Source: Burkholderiales bacterium (lineage in GTDB: Bacteria > Pseudomonadota > Gammaproteobacteria > Burkholderiales > SG8-39). Taken from it: a stretch of 64,000 bases of DNA. Made by a program: the position numbers and the translations under genes. The notes under the pieces are model-generated. The model worked only from the letters and a program-made list of their open reading frames with translations. It searched no databases and had not been told where the DNA came from. Where the stretch lies: NCBI GenBank assembly GCA_017880775.1, contig JADGRQ010000004.1, positions 62,001 through 126,000 of the forward strand, given 5' to 3'. This document shows, piece after piece, positions 11,598-62,884 of the stretch (positions are counted from its first letter, which is position 1; the number at the start of each line of letters is the position of its first letter).

Positions 11598-12785
11598 CTA
11601 ATTCAGGCGCTCGAATATCGCCGCGATCCCCTGCCCGCCCCCGATGCACATGGTGACCAGCGCATAGCGCTTTTGCGTGCGCTGCAGTTCGTAGAGCGCC
11701 TTGACGGTGAGGATGCAGCCGGTCGCGCCGATCGGATGCCCGAGCGCTACCGCGCCGCCGTTTGGATTGACCTTGGCGGGATCGAGGCCTAGATCCTTCG
11801 TCACCGCCATCGCCTGTGCCGCGAAGGCCTCATTCGATTCGATCACGTCCATGTCGGCGGGCTTCAGGCCGGACTTCTCGAACACGCGCTTCACCGCCGG
11901 GATCGGGCCGAGCCCCATCAGCTGCGGCTCGACGCCGGCGTGCGCATAGGCCACCAGCCGCGCCATCGGCCTCGCGCCGGCCTTCTCGGCCGCCTTGGCC
12001 TCCATCAGCACCACCGCCGCGGCTGCATCGTTGAGCCCTGACGCGTTGCCGGCGGTCACGGTGCCGTCCTTCTTGAATACGGTCTTCAACTTGCTCATGT
12101 CCGCGAGCGTCACGTCCTTGCGCACGTGCTCGTCGAGCGTGAACTGCCCGGTGCCTTTCCTCGACTTCACCTCGACCGCCACGATCTGGGACTGGAAATA
12201 GCCGTTGTCGAGAGCATTGGCAGCGCGGCGGTGGCTCTCTACGGCAAACGCGTCCTGCTGCTCGCGCGTGAGGCCGTACTTGGCCGCGACGTTCTCCGCG
12301 GTCACGCCCATGTGGCCGTTGCCGAACGGATCGTGCAGCGCACCGGTCATCGCATCGACGATGGCGCCGTCGCCCATGCGCTGGCCCCAGCGCCCGGAGG
12401 GCATGAAATACGCCGCGCGGCTCATGCTCTCGGCGCCCGCGCCGATCGCGACGTCAGTGTCGCCGAGCAGGATATGCTGGGAGGCCGAGACGATCGCCTG
12501 CAACCCGCTGCCGCACAGGCGGTTGACCGTGAGGCAGGGCGTGGCGACGGGCAGGCCGGCGTCGATCGCTGCGACGCGCGACATGTACATGTCGCGCGCT
12601 TCGCCGTGGATCACGCTTCCGACCACGACGTGGCCGACCGTGGCCCCGTCGATCTTCGCGCGCGAAAGCGCTTCCTTGATCGCGATTGAGCCGAGCCTGG
12701 TCGGTGCAACGTCCTTGAGCGAGCCGCCGTAATCGCCGATCGCAGTCCTCGCACCCGCCACTACCACCACTTCACGCTGTGCCAT
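11598..12785 (-). CDS. Acetyl-CoA C-acyltransferase (thiolase), second copy
   Basis: 395 residues with the nucleophilic Cys in NRLCGSGLQAI (near 90), the GHPIGATG His near 350 and the CIGGGQG Cys near 380. It catalyses reversible condensation of two acyl-CoA units. It is related to but distinct from the phaA copy at 16368-17546, and may act on longer acyl-CoAs (as BktB does) or in fatty-acid breakdown. It lies last in the leftward pha/rimO block, 24 bp after rimO. Confidence 0.85.
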   Translation of the reverse strand: MAQREVVVVAGARTAIGDYGGSLKDVAPTRLGSIAIKEALSRAKIDGATVGHVVVGSVIHGEARDMYMSRVAAIDAGLPVATPCLTVNRLCGSGLQAIVSASQHILLGDTDVAIGAGAESMSRAAYFMPSGRWGQRMGDGAIVDAMTGALHDPFGNGHMGVTAENVAAKYGLTREQQDAFAVESHRRAANALDNGYFQSQIVAVEVKSRKGTGQFTLDEHVRKDVTLADMSKLKTVFKKDGTVTAGNASGLNDAAAAVVLMEAKAAEKAGARPMARLVAYAHAGVEPQLMGLGPIPAVKRVFEKSGLKPADMDVIESNEAFAAQAMAVTKDLGLDPAKVNPNGGAVALGHPIGATGCILTVKALYELQRTQKRYALVTMCIGGGQGIAAIFERLN

Positions 12786-56279: not shown

Positions 56280-56292
56280 TTTGCTTGGTTGT

Positions 56293-56308
56293 GGTGCGTT
56301 GACGCACC
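56293..56308 (+). terminator. Short hairpin between the NTF2-like and deacetylase genes
   Basis: Perfect GGTGCG-TTGA-CGCACC stem-loop 14 bp after the stop codon of the NTF2-like gene; no T-run follows. Possibly a weak terminator. Confidence 0.3.
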
Positions 56309-56318
56309 GTTCCGGAAC

Positions 56319-57191
56319 ATGACCGGCCCGCTCAGGACCCACGGCCGCTACGAATACTCGGCCATCACGCGCCGGCCGGACTACACGTGGCCTGGCGGTC
56401 GCCGGCTCGCCGTTTACATCGGCTTCAACATCGAGCACTTCGCATTCGGCGAAGGGCTGGGCGCGGCGCTCGGGCCGCGCACGCCGGAGCCGGACGTGCT
56501 CAACTATTCCTGGCGCGATTACGGCAACCGCGTAGGGGTCTGGCGCTGCCTGGACCTGTTCGAGGCGCTGAAGCTGCCGGTCGGAGCGCTGGTCAACACC
56601 GCGCTCTACGACTACTGCCCCGAGGTGATCGAGGCTTTCGTGCGGCGCGGGGATGAGCTGATCGGCCATGGGCATACCAACTCGGAACGCCAGGGCGAGA
56701 TGAGCGAGGCTGAAGAAAGAAAATTGCTCGAGCAATGCCGTGACCGTATCGCGAAGGAGTCCGGAAAGGCACCGGCCGGGTGGCTGAGTCCGTGGATCTC
56801 CGAGAGCCTGGTTACTTCTGATTTATTGGCCGAGACCGGCTATCGCTATACGCTCAACTGGTGCCACGACGACCAGCCGGTCAAGTTTTCAACCCGCAGT
56901 GGAAACCTGTGGTCGATCCCGTATCCGCAGGAACTGAACGACATCCCGATGATCGTCGCGCGGCAGATGGACGGCCGCGATTTTTCCGACCTGATCGTCG
57001 ATAACTTCGACGAAATGGTCTTGCAGTCAGAAGCTCAGCCGCTGGTGATGGGCGTCGCGCTGCACCCGTATGTCGTCGGCCAGCCGTACAGGCTGCGGCA
57101 CCTGCGCCGCGCGCTGACGCACATCGCTCAGTCGCAGAAGGCGTGGTTTACCACGCCGGGCAGAATCTGCGATTTCGTCGCGAGCCTCTGA
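56319..57191 (+). CDS. Polysaccharide deacetylase-family (PuuE/allantoinase-like) protein
   Basis: 290 residues from ATG 56319. NodB-like fold: LAVYIGFNIEHFAFGEGLG, NYSWRDYGNRVGVWRCLDLFEALKLPVGALVNTALYD, RRGDELIGHGHTNSE (His metal site), LAETGYRYTLNWCHDDQP and MGVALHPYVVGQPYRL. The N-terminus (RPDYTWPGGRRLAVYIG) is typical of the PuuE/uricase-linked branch. It would hydrolyse an amide; the substrate is not known. The oxamate genes 3.5 kb away would fit ureide catabolism, but the link is weak. Confidence 0.78.
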   Translation: MTGPLRTHGRYEYSAITRRPDYTWPGGRRLAVYIGFNIEHFAFGEGLGAALGPRTPEPDVLNYSWRDYGNRVGVWRCLDLFEALKLPVGALVNTALYDYCPEVIEAFVRRGDELIGHGHTNSERQGEMSEAEERKLLEQCRDRIAKESGKAPAGWLSPWISESLVTSDLLAETGYRYTLNWCHDDQPVKFSTRSGNLWSIPYPQELNDIPMIVARQMDGRDFSDLIVDNFDEMVLQSEAQPLVMGVALHPYVVGQPYRLRHLRRALTHIAQSQKAWFTTPGRICDFVASL

Positions 57192-57421
57192 GATTCTGTT
57201 ACACGCACCGCATCGTGACGGTTTACCCCTCTGCGGCAGCGCCGAAGAGGTGCCAGCTTTCACGGTTTGTTAGGACCGTGTTGATGTACAGTGTCTCGAG
57301 GCAAGATGCGGAGCACGAAGGGTTTTCTTCGCGGGCATGACGGCCAGGATAAGGCGCAGGCGCCATGCTATGAATCAATCGCGCGCCCGACATTGAGTTA
57401 GGCTCCTCAAGGAAAACTCTC
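57192..57421. other. Spacer left of the cassette array
   Basis: 230 bp without a gene. It holds a hairpin (CACGGT-N8-ACCGTG at 57261-57280, loop with GTTAGGA) and the left core site GTTAGGC at 57397-57403. No attI and no integrase gene is recognisable. Nothing else was seen. Confidence 0.4.
57397..57403 (+). other. Left cassette boundary core site
   Basis: GTTAGGC (the GTTRRRY core) marks the 5' junction of the first cassette. It is the perfect complement of the GCCTAAC inverse core at the end of that cassette (58276-58282), as expected when the circular cassette integrated here. The upstream attC/attI partner is missing or unrecognisable. Confidence 0.65.
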
Positions 57422-58324
57422 GTGTCGCAATCGTTCTTTCTGTCCGGCTCAGCCGCGGACCCTGCGTATTTGGTAGCGCGAGACAGTCCGAATGCTGCAC
57501 CGCTTCGAGAAGAAGCAGAGTCCCTATGGAAAGACTATCGCTCATACGCAGACACTGCGTTTCGAGCGGGCGCGATGCAGCAGTTCCTTCAACGCTACTG
57601 GGAGATGTACGTCGCGGTTGCGCTGCTACGAGCGGGATTCGAGCTCACAAAGTATGGAGACGTGGGGCCCGAGTTTTCATTCGATCTCAAGGGAAGGCGT
57701 GTCTGGCTCGAAGCAGTGGCTCCGACGGCAGGGTCAGGCCGAGATGCCGTACCACCCATACTTCCAGGCCAGTACTTCACCGTCCCGACTGAGCGCATCG
57801 CACTTCGGTTTACAAACGCCTTTGCCGAGAAGCGAATCCGATATGCCGATGCCGTGGCGAAGGGTATCGTCGTGCCTGATGACGCATACGTGCTAGCGAT
57901 GAACTCCCGCGCCATACCTCACGGCCCACACAGCGGAACAATCCCGTTCTATGTCCAGTCTCTTCTGCCAATTGGCCAGCTAACGTTGTCTATCGACAAA
58001 AGGACAAAGCGGGAAGTCGATCGCTTTCACGCCTATCGCCCATCCGTCGAAAAGGTGAGTGGTGCGCCTGTTTCTACGAGCGCGTTCTTGGAGCCTGCAT
58101 CCTCGTTCTGCTCTGCCGTGTTGCACTCTGCAGTCGACTTCTGGAATCATCCGACGCGTATCGGCTCGGACTTCTCAGTTCTACACAACCCCAGCGCGGC
58201 GCACCCGATACATCGCGAAGTGTTTTCATGGTGCGAGCAGTTCCGCTTTGCTGATGATGCCCTTCACCGCGAGGAGCCTAACAAGCCGGTGCAACCGACG
58301 CGGGCGCGAGGCCGGCGCGGCTGA
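57422..58324 (+). CDS. Cassette 1 protein, PD-(D/E)XK nuclease-like?
   Basis: 300 residues from a GTG start 19 bp after the core site. The segment RAGFELTKYGDVGPEFSFDLKG then RRVWLEAVAPT resembles the D...ExX core of PD-(D/E)XK nucleases (with Val in place of the final Lys), but this is only a hint. The C-terminus (NKPVQPTRARGRRG) is encoded by the attC site, a frequent trait of cassette proteins. No signal peptide. Function unknown. Confidence 0.6.
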   Translation: MSQSFFLSGSAADPAYLVARDSPNAAPLREEAESLWKDYRSYADTAFRAGAMQQFLQRYWEMYVAVALLRAGFELTKYGDVGPEFSFDLKGRRVWLEAVAPTAGSGRDAVPPILPGQYFTVPTERIALRFTNAFAEKRIRYADAVAKGIVVPDDAYVLAMNSRAIPHGPHSGTIPFYVQSLLPIGQLTLSIDKRTKREVDRFHAYRPSVEKVSGAPVSTSAFLEPASSFCSAVLHSAVDFWNHPTRIGSDFSVLHNPSAAHPIHREVFSWCEQFRFADDALHREEPNKPVQPTRARGRRG

Positions 58325-58339
58325 CCGCCGGCGTTAGGC
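58276..58339 (+). repeat. attC site 1
   Basis: 64 bp. It begins with GCCTAAC (58276-58282) and ends with GTTAGGC (58333-58339), perfect 7-bp complements; the interior is GC-rich and can pair. It overlaps the last 16 codons of the cassette 1 gene. Confidence 0.85.
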
Positions 58340-58368
58340 CGCGCAAGCCACAATTTGGGGAAACTCCG

Positions 58369-58881
58369 ATGAAGACCATTTTTTCTAGACCACTATTATT
58401 TATTCTTGTAATGGTCTGTCCTATCTTCGGGCAGGCGAGCGAGCCGATGTATCACTCCGCCGATCCACTTCTTTTCGAGGTCATCGAAAATGGAGTAATT
58501 TCCAATAAACGTGTTTCTCTCGAAATTAATGCCAACGATAGAAACGGAACTAAATGGGCTGAATGTCTAATCACCGTCATCACCATAAACAACGAGAAGA
58601 AGCGTATTGAGTTGTATATGTATCATGCCTCAACGGAGGATGCGACGATCAAGAATCTCAGCGTTAGCTCCAAGGCAATTTCCTTCGAGATGATTCCATT
58701 CCCGTTGGCTCCGGATCGCCCCCTAAGATTTCTTGCTACGCGGCAAGACGAGTTATCACATTTGTACCAGGCGAATGCGGTTGGTTTGTGGAAGGGGCTG
58801 TTTAAGGAAACAGAATTGCAGAAAATCGAATGGAGGCAAGTGCCATCAATTACGCTACCTTTTTCCACAATAGGCAAATAG
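58369..58881 (+). CDS. Cassette 2 protein, exported, unknown function
   Basis: 170 residues. Signal peptide (LLFILVMVCPIFGQASE) followed by a beta-rich, mostly polar domain. It is noticeably AT-rich compared with the chromosome. No family recognised. It starts 29 bp after attC1 and ends 23 bp before attC2, the normal spacing of a cassette gene. Confidence 0.6.
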   Translation: MKTIFSRPLLFILVMVCPIFGQASEPMYHSADPLLFEVIENGVISNKRVSLEINANDRNGTKWAECLITVITINNEKKRIELYMYHASTEDATIKNLSVSSKAISFEMIPFPLAPDRPLRFLATRQDELSHLYQANAVGLWKGLFKETELQKIEWRQVPSITLPFSTIGK

Positions 58882-58904
58882 CAGTCAGTCAGCTGAACCG
58901 TGTG

Positions 58905-58967
58905 GCCTAACCACCGATTGCAGGCGACGCGCACGAAGCCGCGCGCGCCTGAACCGGGACGTTAGCC
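58905..58967 (+). repeat. attC site 2
   Basis: 63 bp. Starts GCCTAAC (58905-58911), ends GTTAGCC (58961-58967, one mismatch to GTTRRRY). Inner hairpin CAGGCG-A-CGCGC with GCGCGC-GCCTG. The 5' core complements the 3' core of attC1, as expected for cassette 2. Confidence 0.85.
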
Positions 58968-59002
58968 ATGTGTCCCCTGCCATCAGTCGTGGGTTTTCAA
59001 CT

Positions 59003-59725
59003 ATGTTAAGTCGCGCTGCATCAATTGTGTTTGGATGTGCACTTTCCATACTGGCAAGCACTGCGTGGGCCGAACAACCAGACGGTGAATATCTTGATGG
59101 AGGATCATCGAAGGTTGGTGTTATTTTGGTTCACGGTCGGTTCGGAGGGCGAGGAGACGCCAAGTCTCCGGTAGTGAATCCGTTGCGCATCGCCATTCAT
59201 AAGCACCTTGGTTTTCATACGCTGTCAATTACCTATCCCCAATCCGGCCGCAGCAGGAGCGCGGCTGATGAGGCTGGTAATTTCCCAGCCGCCTACCAGA
59301 GGCTTGATTCAGCGATAGCGTTTCTTACCAAAGAAAAGGGTGTAACGCAGATTTACGTCATGGGCCACAGTCTTGGCACCCGCATAACAATCTCCTATCT
59401 GGCCAATAAATCGGTGCCAGATCTCCGGGGCTACATCGGCGTCGGTATCTACGGTGGTGGCAAGTGTGAGGAGGGAGATGCGAATCCGCTCAATACTTTA
59501 TGCAATTTAAAAACTATTCTCAGGAACAATGCTAATTTTCCAGTCATTGATGTCGTTGCGATGAGTGATGAGAAGGATGTCCACTTCGCCAACGGAAGAA
59601 CTATATTAGTCTCACCAGCGTATAGGCAAGTTCGTATCGAGGATGCTGACCATCTATTCCGCAGAAAAGAGGATGACACGGTCAACACTGTCGTTGATTG
59701 GTTGAAACAACAACAGAACAAATAG
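59003..59725 (+). CDS. Cassette 3 protein, exported alpha/beta hydrolase
   Basis: 240 residues from ATG 59003 (an in-frame GTG at 58970 would add 11 residues before the signal peptide). Signal peptide (SIVFGCALSILASTAWA), then an alpha/beta-hydrolase fold: VILVHGRFGG, nucleophile in MGHSLGTRI, Asp in VVAMSDEKDVHF and His in RIEDADHLFRR. Likely esterase-like, acting in the periplasm or outside. It starts at attC2 and ends 1 bp before attC3. GC is lower than the flanks. Confidence 0.75.
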   Translation: MLSRAASIVFGCALSILASTAWAEQPDGEYLDGGSSKVGVILVHGRFGGRGDAKSPVVNPLRIAIHKHLGFHTLSITYPQSGRSRSAADEAGNFPAAYQRLDSAIAFLTKEKGVTQIYVMGHSLGTRITISYLANKSVPDLRGYIGVGIYGGGKCEEGDANPLNTLCNLKTILRNNANFPVIDVVAMSDEKDVHFANGRTILVSPAYRQVRIEDADHLFRRKEDDTVNTVVDWLKQQQNK

Positions 59726-59726
59726 T

Positions 59727-59792
59727 GGCTAACACTTTGCTCAACACTGACGCGCGCAAGAATAGCGCGCGCCGGTTAGCACAACGTTGGGC
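59727..59792 (+). repeat. attC site 3
   Basis: 66 bp. Starts GGCTAAC (59727-59733), which perfectly complements the GTTAGCC end of attC2 (the start of cassette 3); ends GTTGGGC (59786-59792). Inner stem CGCGCGC-N7-GCGCGCG. Confidence 0.85.
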
Positions 59793-59849
59793 GTCATGGC
59801 GAAACCAACACAGCGCATCGCATGAGATACATGGGAAGGAGAATGCTTT

Positions 59850-60044
59850 GTGACTGAAGACCAGTTCCTGCCGCCCCCTGCCACTGCGAACACTCAGCTG
59901 ACTCATCTTGAGCAATACAAGATGCTTCGCGAAGAAATCATGCAGAACATCCGTGTTATGGATCCGTACTTTCTTGCTCATCCAAGGAACTATCGCCTTC
60001 TCGCTTGGGGCAAAGCGCTGCCTCAATATCAAGTCACAATGTGA
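59850..60044 (+). CDS. Cassette 4 protein, small, probably truncated
   Basis: 64 residues from a GTG start preceded by AAGGAG. THLEQYKMLREEIMQNIR resembles the N-terminus of many short cassette proteins in which a membrane hairpin follows, but here it is cut short (RVMDPYFLAHPR...). The gene is followed by a hairpin rather than an attC. Function unknown; possibly broken by loss of the right array end. Confidence 0.5.
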   Translation: MTEDQFLPPPATANTQLTHLEQYKMLREEIMQNIRVMDPYFLAHPRNYRLLAWGKALPQYQVTM

Positions 60045-60062
60045 CGCGCCGCAAGCGGCGCG
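60045..60062 (+). repeat. Perfect hairpin at the right end of the array
   Basis: CGCGCCGC-AA-GCGGCGCG, an 8-bp perfect stem. It starts right after the stop of the cassette 4 gene. It resembles the inner stem of attC3 and may be an attC remnant, or a terminator. Confidence 0.4.
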
Positions 60063-60134
60063 GCCCTGAAGCGAAGCCTGGAGGGCAAGGAATTGCGTGG
60101 CGCTATACTTCGCCTGGAGAATGAGGATCACCCG

Positions 60135-60338
60135 ATGAACATGCCCGGAATTGAGTTTTTGCGCGACAGAAAAGGCCGTCGCAAAGCGGTTTTGATCGAC
60201 CTGAAGAAGCACAAGCGGCTTTGGGAAGATCTCTACGACGCTTATCTCGCGCACAACCGGCGCGCCGAGCGCCGTGAGTCCCTCGCGACCGTAAAACGCC
60301 TTGTCGAGGCCAGCGCCAAGCGTAAGGCGCGTGGCTGA
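60135..60338 (+). CDS. RelB/Phd-like antitoxin
   Basis: 67 residues from ATG 60135. NMPGIEFLRDRKGRRKAVLIDLKKH, then WEDLYDAYLAHNRRAE: a short helical antitoxin of the type preceding RelE/ParE toxins. It overlaps the toxin gene by 8 bp (GTGGCTGA). It immediately follows the cassette array and might help keep this region in the chromosome. Confidence 0.75.
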   Translation: MNMPGIEFLRDRKGRRKAVLIDLKKHKRLWEDLYDAYLAHNRRAERRESLATVKRLVEASAKRKARG

Positions 60339-60591
60339 CTACGCAGTCGTCTTTGCGCGATCCGCGCGTAAAGAGTTACAAAATCTTGATCCCCAAGTGG
60401 CCCGGCGCATCCTCAAAACAATTGAGGCGCTGTTGGCCAATCCCCGCCCATCAGGAGTTGTAAAGCTCGAAGGCGCAAGCGATCTCTGGCGGGTGCGTGT
60501 GGGCGAGTGGCGCGTGATCTACCGCATTTCTGACCGGGACCATTTGGTCGATGTCATTGCTGTTCGCCACCGCCGTGACGCATACCGATAG
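60331..60591 (+). CDS. relE: RelE/ParE-family toxin
   Basis: 86 residues from a GTG at 60331, at the end of the antitoxin gene. ADYAVVFARSARKELQNLDPQV, then VVKLEGASDLWRVRVGEWRVIYRISD and VDVIAVRHRRDAYR: a RelE fold with the conserved Arg-rich end. It would cleave mRNA at the ribosome (RelE) or act as a gyrase poison (ParE); RelE-like features dominate. It is not flanked by an attC on its right. Confidence 0.82.
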   Translation: MADYAVVFARSARKELQNLDPQVARRILKTIEALLANPRPSGVVKLEGASDLWRVRVGEWRVIYRISDRDHLVDVIAVRHRRDAYR

Positions 60592-60623
60592 CCGCTGCCC
60601 TCTAGCCGCCGCGTCTACTAGAG

Positions 60624-60645
60624 TCATTCCCGCGCAGGCGGAAAT
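60624..60645. repeat. REP-like palindromic repeat, copy 2
   Basis: TCATTCCCGC-GCAG-GCGG-A-AAT. Same type as the copy at 1143-1166 with one arm mismatch. It supplies the TGA stop and the final PPARE residues of allG (minus strand). Confidence 0.7.
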
Positions 60646-62081
60646 CCATCCGCCAGCGCCTCCACCGCCTGCGTAAAACACTCCAGCGGCACCCGCACAA
60701 TCCCCGCCCCGATCTGCCCAACCCCCGCCCGCTTGTGCGCAATGCCGGTAGTCACCACCGGCCGAATCCCCGTATCCACCACCTTCCTCACTTCGATCCC
60801 CGCCGGCGCACCAGCGAACTCCAAATTCGGCAGCGACATCACGGGATTCCTCGTCCAGGTGACGTGGTACATCTCGCGCGAGTACTCCACGGCTTGCGCA
60901 ACGCTTCCGCCCACCAACTGCACCAGCGCAGGCGAAGCCGCGAGCGCCTGCCCCCCATAGCCCGCGGTCTCGCAAATCGCGCTGTCGCCCAAATCGGCGT
61001 TTGCATCTTCCTGCGAGAACCCGGGAAAGAACAACCCGACCGGCGTATCCGACGGCGCCTCGAACCAGCGCCCACCCAGCCCGCTCACCCGGATCGCAGT
61101 AGTCACGCCGTTCCTCGCAATGGCGGTGACGATCGAAGACCCTTCCACGCCATGTGTCGCGTCCATGATCGCTTTGGACGCGACCATCGAAAGGTTGAGG
61201 AAGAACTGGCTCGTCGCAGCGATGAAGTCGAGCGCCTCGCGCGAGCGAGCGCGATCGAAGTCGCTCCCCGCGAGCGCGCCGCCGATCGCCATGTGAAACA
61301 GCGCCGTCGCCGCGGAGTTGCGGCTGTGCACTTCGTCGCCCATCAGCAGCGCCTGCGACTGGATCGCCTTTAGATCAACACCGCCCGGAATACAGCCAAG
61401 CGCCGCCTTGATCGCCGGCGCGAGCACCGCCGCGATCCACCTGAGCCGCTCGATCACGTCCGGCTCGTACGCGCCGAAGCGCAATACGCGGCCGATGCCT
61501 TCGGTGAAGTTCGTGTAGGCCAGGTTGCCGTGCGTCGCATTCTTCACTACGAAGACCGGCATCGACGGCGAAATCGCGCCCGACATCGGCCCCACCGCGC
61601 CGATGTCGTGGTTCGGCAGAAATTCGACCTCGCCGCGCGCGAGGCGCCCGGCCGCATCATCGGGCGTGTCTGCCCAGTTTTCATACAGCATCGCGCCGAT
61701 CATCGTGCCCTTCATCGGGTCGCACATGCGCGCCCACGGGATAGGCGCACCGGCATGGGTGAGCGTCTTCCTGCCGTTCGCCCACAGCTCGGGCCAGATC
61801 GCGTCGGCGCGCAGGCTCACGTCGGTCAGAACCGGTCGGGCAGCGAGCATGCGGTTGGCCGCCGCGTCGTTCGCCCGGTCGATGCGCGAGCCGAGCGCAT
61901 CCGGATCGTCCGCGTCGCCGGCCAGTTGGGCGAGCGTCCATGCGAGCCTGGGATTGCCGTCGCCGGCCGGCCGCCAGTCCAGGTGCACGAGCGGCGCACC
62001 CGCCTGCGCCACACTGGAAGTGAACATCTCGAGTCCGACGTTTACGACACCGAGCGTGTCGTGCAGCAGGTCGTGCTTCAT
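60624..62081 (-). CDS. allG: DUF1116 protein, oxamate carbamoyltransferase subunit AllG (YlbE)
   Basis: 485 residues from ATG 62081 (overlap ATGA with allH). DUF1116 features: LGVVNVGLEMFTSSVAQAG, NHDIGAVGPMSGAISPSMPVFVV, RNSAATALFHMAIG-like EVHSRNSAATALF and TRNPVMSLPNLEFAG. In E. coli, AllF, AllG and AllH (formerly FdrA, YlbE, YlbF) together form oxamate carbamoyltransferase. It makes carbamoyl phosphate and oxamate from oxalurate. The last residues come from a palindromic repeat. Confidence 0.85.
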   Translation of the reverse strand: MKHDLLHDTLGVVNVGLEMFTSSVAQAGAPLVHLDWRPAGDGNPRLAWTLAQLAGDADDPDALGSRIDRANDAAANRMLAARPVLTDVSLRADAIWPELWANGRKTLTHAGAPIPWARMCDPMKGTMIGAMLYENWADTPDDAAGRLARGEVEFLPNHDIGAVGPMSGAISPSMPVFVVKNATHGNLAYTNFTEGIGRVLRFGAYEPDVIERLRWIAAVLAPAIKAALGCIPGGVDLKAIQSQALLMGDEVHSRNSAATALFHMAIGGALAGSDFDRARSREALDFIAATSQFFLNLSMVASKAIMDATHGVEGSSIVTAIARNGVTTAIRVSGLGGRWFEAPSDTPVGLFFPGFSQEDANADLGDSAICETAGYGGQALAASPALVQLVGGSVAQAVEYSREMYHVTWTRNPVMSLPNLEFAGAPAGIEVRKVVDTGIRPVVTTGIAHKRAGVGQIGAGIVRVPLECFTQAVEALADGFPPARE

Positions 62082-62884
62082 GCCCGATTCCCTGAGAGAT
62101 CGGCGGTCACGCCGATCACGAATCCGGTCAGCATGTCCCATCCCGACGAATGCCCGAGCGCGGCGAGCGTGCGCGCGGCATCGATCGCCGCCGCATCATC
62201 ATCCGCAATCAGCGCGTCGGCCAGCGCGTGCAGCGATTCGAAGCTCGCGCCGGCGACCAGGTCTGCCAGCAGCGCCGCGCTGATCGCGTGACTTGCGCTC
62301 TGCGCCTCACGCACCAGGCGCTCGCCGATTGCGCGCCAGCGCGGGTCGCGGGACACGAGCCTGCGGCCGAACAGCGCTCCGCCGCACAGATCGTCGCCGG
62401 AAGGCGTCAACCCTGCTCCCAACCCGAGCAGCGCGCGCGAGGCCGAATGGACCGCACCCGCATCGTCCGCCCGGTATGCGGCGGCGAGCGCCTCCACCCG
62501 GTCGATCGCGTGGTCGAGCGGAAACTCAGGCCTGCGGCCGACCAGCAGTGCGCCGAAGCCACGCGGCTCGCCCAGGCTGGAGAGCGACTCCACCAGCCGC
62601 CGGCACGCTCCTGCGACGGATGCAGCGCGCGCCACTGGCGGCAACGCAGCCCTCCAGGCAGGGCGCGGCAGCGATTCGAACGACGCGACCCGGCCGCGCA
62701 AGACCGGCGCCGCAGTCAGCACGGCGCGCGGATGGCGCGCCGGCAGCTTCGATCCCACCCAGATGATCTCGCCTGCCGCGTCGAAATACGGCGCATCGGG
62801 AAACGCCGCCAGCGGATGCGCAACACCGCCGCTCGCCTTGAGCGCGGCGTGCGCCTTGACGCCGATACTGACCACTGCGTTCAC
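62078..62884 (-). CDS. allH: DUF2877 protein, oxamate carbamoyltransferase subunit AllH (YlbF)
   Basis: 268 residues from GTG 62884, which overlaps the arcC stop (GTGA). DUF2877 features: GAGLTPSGDDLCGGALFGRRL and a C-terminal GHSSGWDMLTGFVIGVTADL. It overlaps allG by 4 bp. Subunit of the ureide-catabolic oxamate carbamoyltransferase. Confidence 0.82.
   Translation of the reverse strand: MNAVVSIGVKAHAALKASGGVAHPLAAFPDAPYFDAAGEIIWVGSKLPARHPRAVLTAAPVLRGRVASFESLPRPAWRAALPPVARAASVAGACRRLVESLSSLGEPRGFGALLVGRRPEFPLDHAIDRVEALAAAYRADDAGAVHSASRALLGLGAGLTPSGDDLCGGALFGRRLVSRDPRWRAIGERLVREAQSASHAISAALLADLVAGASFESLHALADALIADDDAAAIDAARTLAALGHSSGWDMLTGFVIGVTADLSGNRA

Follow-up and report, generated by a model that had tools for sequence, protein, structure and literature searches.

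The cassette array and its attC sites

The stretch of DNA analysed here (the window) is 64 kb long and corresponds to C54:62001-126000 of a 4.30 Mb draft genome that is 97.8% complete. Within it, a low-GC block of about 3.4 kb lies between a polysaccharide-deacetylase gene (end at 57191) and an AllG-family gene (60624-62141). The GC content of the individual units of the block is 0.48-0.58, compared with 0.63-0.67 in the neighbours, and along the region it goes down to 0.50-0.58 vs. about 0.65, in agreement with the drop in base composition across the array that had been remarked in a first-pass annotation of the sequence. The features of the block and its borders, in window coordinates, are as follows.

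56289-57191, plus strand: left neighbour, polysaccharide-deacetylase-like gene, in the same direction as the cassettes (Pfam PF01522)
57243-57263, minus strand: putative stub of a deleted intI, GTG start (57261-57263) and about six more codons (DNA alignment)
57276-57291, no strand: decayed LexA-like box CCGTGTTGATGTACAG (alignment; counterpart in the same-genus genome G001, CTGTATGGATGTACAG)
57292-57403, plus strand: putative fossil attI, crossover core GTTAGGC at 57397-57403 (homology)
57398-58333, plus strand: cassette 1, ORF 57422-58324, 300 aa, PD-T7-5/PD-T7-1-like (core boxes; PADLOC)
58276-58339, plus strand: attC1 (covariance model 40.5 bits, E 3e-7 in 139 kb)
58334-58961, plus strand: cassette 2, ORF 58369-58881, 170 aa, orphan (core boxes)
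58905-58967, plus strand: attC2 (covariance model 31.9 bits, E 5e-5 in 139 kb)
58962-59786, plus strand: cassette 3, alpha/beta hydrolase, ORF 58970 or 59003-59725 (Pfam PF00561)
59727-59792, plus strand: attC3, weak (covariance model 18.6 bits, E 0.005, filters off, 6 kb)
59787-60084, plus strand: unit 4, ORF 59850-60044, 64 aa, no family match; right end approximate
60042-60072, plus strand: putative eroded attC4, central hairpin kept, both core boxes lost (homology)
60135-60591, plus strand: probable unit 5, antitoxin 60135-60338 and ParE-type toxin 60337-60591 (Pfam PF05016, E 1.7e-14), own attC lost
60623-60648, no strand: dispersed palindromic repeat at the right border of the block (13 genome copies at ≤3 mismatches)
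60624-62141, minus strand: right neighbour, AllG-family gene (Pfam PF06545; 84% identical in G001)

The core boxes read from the DNA are GTTAGGC at 57397, GCCTAAC at 58276, GTTAGGC at 58333, GCCTAAC at 58905, GTTAGCC at 58961, GGCTAAC at 59727 and GTTGGGC at 59786. In each of the three between-cassette core pairs, which would join upon cassette circularisation, 7 of 7 positions are complementary, as the first-pass annotation had read them, and the R''/R' match within attC1, attC2 and attC3 is 7/7, 6/7 and 5/7, respectively. Because a strict hairpin scan of the window found attC1 only, and a loosened scan that picked up attC2 came with 1.4 chance matches per 64 kb, we used a covariance model trained on 11 attC sites from resistance cassettes of public plasmids, none of them from this genome. 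The model found attC sites at all three positions at which they had been proposed, attC3 weakly, and bore out the proposed coordinates. By score alone, attC3 is doubtful, but its R'' complements the R' of attC2 exactly, and this position in the core chain supports its reading as a probable attC. In the whole-genome covariance search, attC1 was the top match among the candidates scored; genome-wide attC counts come from a search whose first pass scored part of its candidates. RNAalifold on seven local attC sites gave no consensus structure, with the variable centres misaligned. An integron cassette array with self-consistent core sites is thus confirmed.

The cassette 1 protein resembles the anti-phage proteins PD-T7-5 (PADLOC, E 1.9e-7) and PD-T7-1 (E 6e-7), which a review lists among PD-(D/E)XK nuclease systems (PMC10952713), and its homologues on alphaproteobacterial plasmids match the same PADLOC models. 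In this family, GP(D/E) and WxE are conserved and the lysine of ExK is absent. Cassette 1 had no match in Pfam, and no relatives of it were found in viral contigs; an AlphaFold prediction made without an alignment had a mean pLDDT of 37.6. Cassette 2 had no Pfam match and no relative among 369 genomes of the class, and the best relative of the cassette 3 protein in the class sample is 47% identical. By eye, proteins 2 and 3 start with a signal-peptide-like stretch.

The right end of the array was described in the first-pass annotation as decayed, with a fourth unit devoid of attC; the decay stands, whereas the apparent remnant of an attC core at 60042-60072 had been overlooked. Positions 60041-60072 are 88% identical over 32 nt to an attC of the same genome (C74:184687-184749), and in the remaining fetched loci the 17-mer GCGCCGCAAGCGGCGCG of this site is confined to attC-like sites (by eye). 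The covariance model gave no significant match here, and we call the site an eroded attC4 on the strength of the alignment. Further to the right, the toxin-antitoxin pair is probably unit 5, because its relative in another genome (G013) is a cassette there, flanked by a model-found attC and by a second attC-like hairpin, recognised by eye, with the outer cores GTTATAGG and CCTATAAC. The array had been delimited at 57397-60044; with attC4 and the toxin-antitoxin unit, its right end would reach about 60591.

The block borders showed neither terminal inverted repeats nor a target duplication, and a transposon origin of the block is therefore unsupported. Nor was DNA resembling the block found in the phages or plasmids searched. 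The dispersed palindromic repeat, GTCATTCCCGCGCAGGCGGRAATCCA, is present at 60623-60648 and at 1149-1167 of the window, and the last codons of allG in this genome come from the copy at 60623.

The left boundary of the array

Positions 57245-57402 share 71% identity over 160 nt with the attI region of the intact integrase of G001 (G001:C22), and the left-boundary stretch is 68% identical, across 164 nt, to the DNA upstream of a broken integrase gene on contig C74 of the genome analysed here; none of 2000 shuffles matched the alignment score. Alignment to the intI starts of both G001:C22 and C74 passes the start codon and ends at 57243-57245. Upstream of this start, the LexA-like box has one mismatch; CTGT-N8-ACAG lies upstream of many integron integrases among those fetched. 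The similarity of the left boundary to the class 1 integron 5' region is weak (77% over 43 nt). Only about seven intI codons are recognisable: between about codon 7 and the stop codon of the deacetylase gene no intI sequence could be recognised, and no alignment was obtained for 57192-57242.

Judging by these alignments, the left boundary (57243-57403) consists of an attI to which the start of a deleted intI is still attached. The GTTAGGC at 57397 had been correctly read as a core box in the first-pass annotation, which had missed that it is the likely point of crossover in a fossil, IntI1-clade attI. The presence of an attI, a LexA-like box and an intI start at the left end argues that this CALIN arose by integrase deletion.

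Integrase genes and the same-genus genome

The first-pass annotation had described the array as lacking an integrase. This holds for the 64-kb window, in which no intI gene was found, but not for the genome, which has two integron integrase (TIGR02249) matches, C54:46997-47845 and C74:53528-54073, both damaged. The C54 gene, the nearest integrase gene, is on the same contig as the array, 72 kb to its left (L009:4976-5902, G000:C54:46976-47902, minus strand), and has an open frame of 308 aa. It encodes the motifs of the catalytic part, is about 30 residues short between this and the N-terminal part, and in the tree belongs to a clade other than that of IntI1; the protein is probably inactive. 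Its attI region shows no similarity to the attI of the array. The integrases of G001:C22 and C74 fall in one clade with IntI1 (support 99/98, 36 rows) in a 107-row tree, and the former shares about 72% identity with IntI1. The contig G001:C22 is itself identical to JACPYS010000012.1, from a groundwater Betaproteobacteria metagenome-assembled genome; the present genome belongs to the same genus.

These genes bear on two alternatives. An integrase encoded elsewhere in the genome might have inserted the cassettes at a secondary site other than attI; this is the first of the three routes to a CALIN listed in PMC8618304. Integrase genes do exist elsewhere in the genome, but such an insertion would not bring the full-length attI and the intI start that are seen at the left end, and the C54 integrase is of another clade with a dissimilar attI region, so that we regard this route as very unlikely. 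Somewhat less remote, though still unlikely, is that the C54 integrase continues to rearrange the array in trans: its frame is open and the motifs of its catalytic part are present, but the apparent gap of about 30 residues and its placement in another clade speak against such activity.

Other integron features accompany these genes. Beside the C54 integrase gene lie attC sites at L009:7269-7325 and 11835-11898, and the C54 array contains a group II intron (L009:8596-10370, with a maturase on the minus strand and Rfam D1-D4 matches) that may be an attC-targeting class C intron. Genes for ABC_sub_bind-type substrate-binding proteins seemingly are cassettes in two integrons, that on C54 of the present genome (L009:7490-8470) and that of G001:C22 (L059:240-1225; by eye). 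The third integron locus of the genome (L010:8462-11141, G000:C74) has the broken IntI1-clade integrase, an intact-looking attI and LexA box, and cassettes that encode an AbiU2-like HEPN protein (first), a GNAT acetyltransferase and a thioesterase. Many genomes around this one have integrons: an integrase scored above the cut-off in 35 of the 61 genomes searched, and attC at E 0.001 in 38 of 61. A complete genome of the same order has an integrase and 48 attC matches, most of which fall into a single array of about 27 kb (G057:C1:276139-304891).

In G001, the deacetylase gene (87% identical) abuts allG, the two genes converging end to end with no block between them; window DNA 57174-60662 has no counterpart there, and on either side of the block collinearity with G001 extends over kilobases. 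The 3.4 kb may be either an insertion here or a loss in G001: G001 is the single same-genus genome compared, and in the other relatives examined the deacetylase gene and allG are not together.

The same comparison weighs on two further explanations. We consider it very unlikely that genome rearrangement, and not deletion of intI, parted the array from an intact integrase. The integron loci of this genome are indeed scattered, but the two borders are collinear with G001, and had the genome been rearranged, the remainder of an IntI1-clade intI, broken at the corresponding point, would be expected elsewhere, whereas the sole other gene of this clade, that on C74, comes with an attI and an array of its own. 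The possibility that the region is an ordinary block of conserved chromosomal genes with terminator palindromes, a gene block being what the first-pass annotation had conceded it might turn out to be in relatives, can be practically dismissed: it has in its favour the absence of Rfam matches in the window at the gathering score and nothing else, and it is refuted by the covariance model, the core chain, the attI homology, and the flanking genes lying side by side without the block in G001.

Proposed history and comparison with known integrons

We consider it highly probable that the block is a relic of an IntI1-clade integron from which intI was deleted and in which the array was left behind; it is assigned to this clade because the nearest intact integrase of its attI, that of G001:C22, falls in the IntI1 clade. 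A complete chromosomal integron of this clade (class 1-like, betaproteobacterial) would once have stood between the deacetylase gene and allG. Its integrase, under LexA control, would have put in cassettes at attI, at least three and probably five of which were captured. A later deletion appears to have taken intI from about codon 7 on, whereas the start codon, the LexA-like box, attI and the array stayed. At the right end, decay seems to have removed the core boxes of attC4 and presumably the last attC, and the array, without its own integrase, would be frozen in place. A cassette promoter of the class 1 type, inside intI, would have gone with the deletion, and expression would therefore now most likely depend on promoters within the cassettes or on read-through from the co-directional deacetylase gene.

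We put forward only tentatively, as a possible but doubtful reading, that the array has been kept for its cargo, with cassette 1 a new integron-borne anti-phage gene of the PD-(D/E)XK type held with the help of the toxin-antitoxin pair. Defence cassettes in first position may be a pattern in these integrons, given that the C74 relic starts with the AbiU2-like HEPN gene.

The origin of CALINs by intI loss is usually inferred from absence. Here the loss appears legible, with the crossover site, the LexA-like box and the first codons surviving, and G001 shows both an intact integron of the clade and the flanking genes without the block. A search for attI fossils to the left of CALINs could sort CALINs by origin. 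The locus also contributes chromosomal relics of the IntI1 clade from a genus of Betaproteobacteria in which the other member compared is a groundwater organism, a useful background for the origin of class 1 integrons, the descent of which from a betaproteobacterial chromosome is already known (PMC5460862; PMC8618304).

By definition the array is a CALIN, and it is better termed a decayed integron. Like other CALINs, it has a row of at least two attC sites (attC1 and attC2 strong, attC3 weak) and no adjoining integrase gene; unlike them, it retains an apparent attI, a LexA-like box and the first intI codons, which make its origin visible. Compared with a complete integron, the putative attI site is in place, whereas of the intI beside it about seven codons are left. 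With the IntI1-clade chromosomal integrons of Betaproteobacteria, the relatives of class 1, it shares the homology of attI and intI start and a nearest intact integrase that groups with IntI1, and it differs from them in the deletion of the integrase. It is not a class 1 integron proper, for which IntI1 at about 98% identity or more is the threshold (PMC8618304): its own intI is gone, and the nearest intact relative lies far below that value, at about 72%. The three CALIN routes of PMC8618304 include loss of intI, and frequent inactivation of intI is known in Xanthomonas, in which deleted or truncated integrase genes likewise stand beside frozen arrays (PMC12444791). The Xanthomonas integrases, however, are at one conserved place downstream of ilvD (PMC12444791), whereas the present genome has three integron loci at separate places. 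The kind is thus already known, and the present array is a new, well-preserved and unusually legible example of it.
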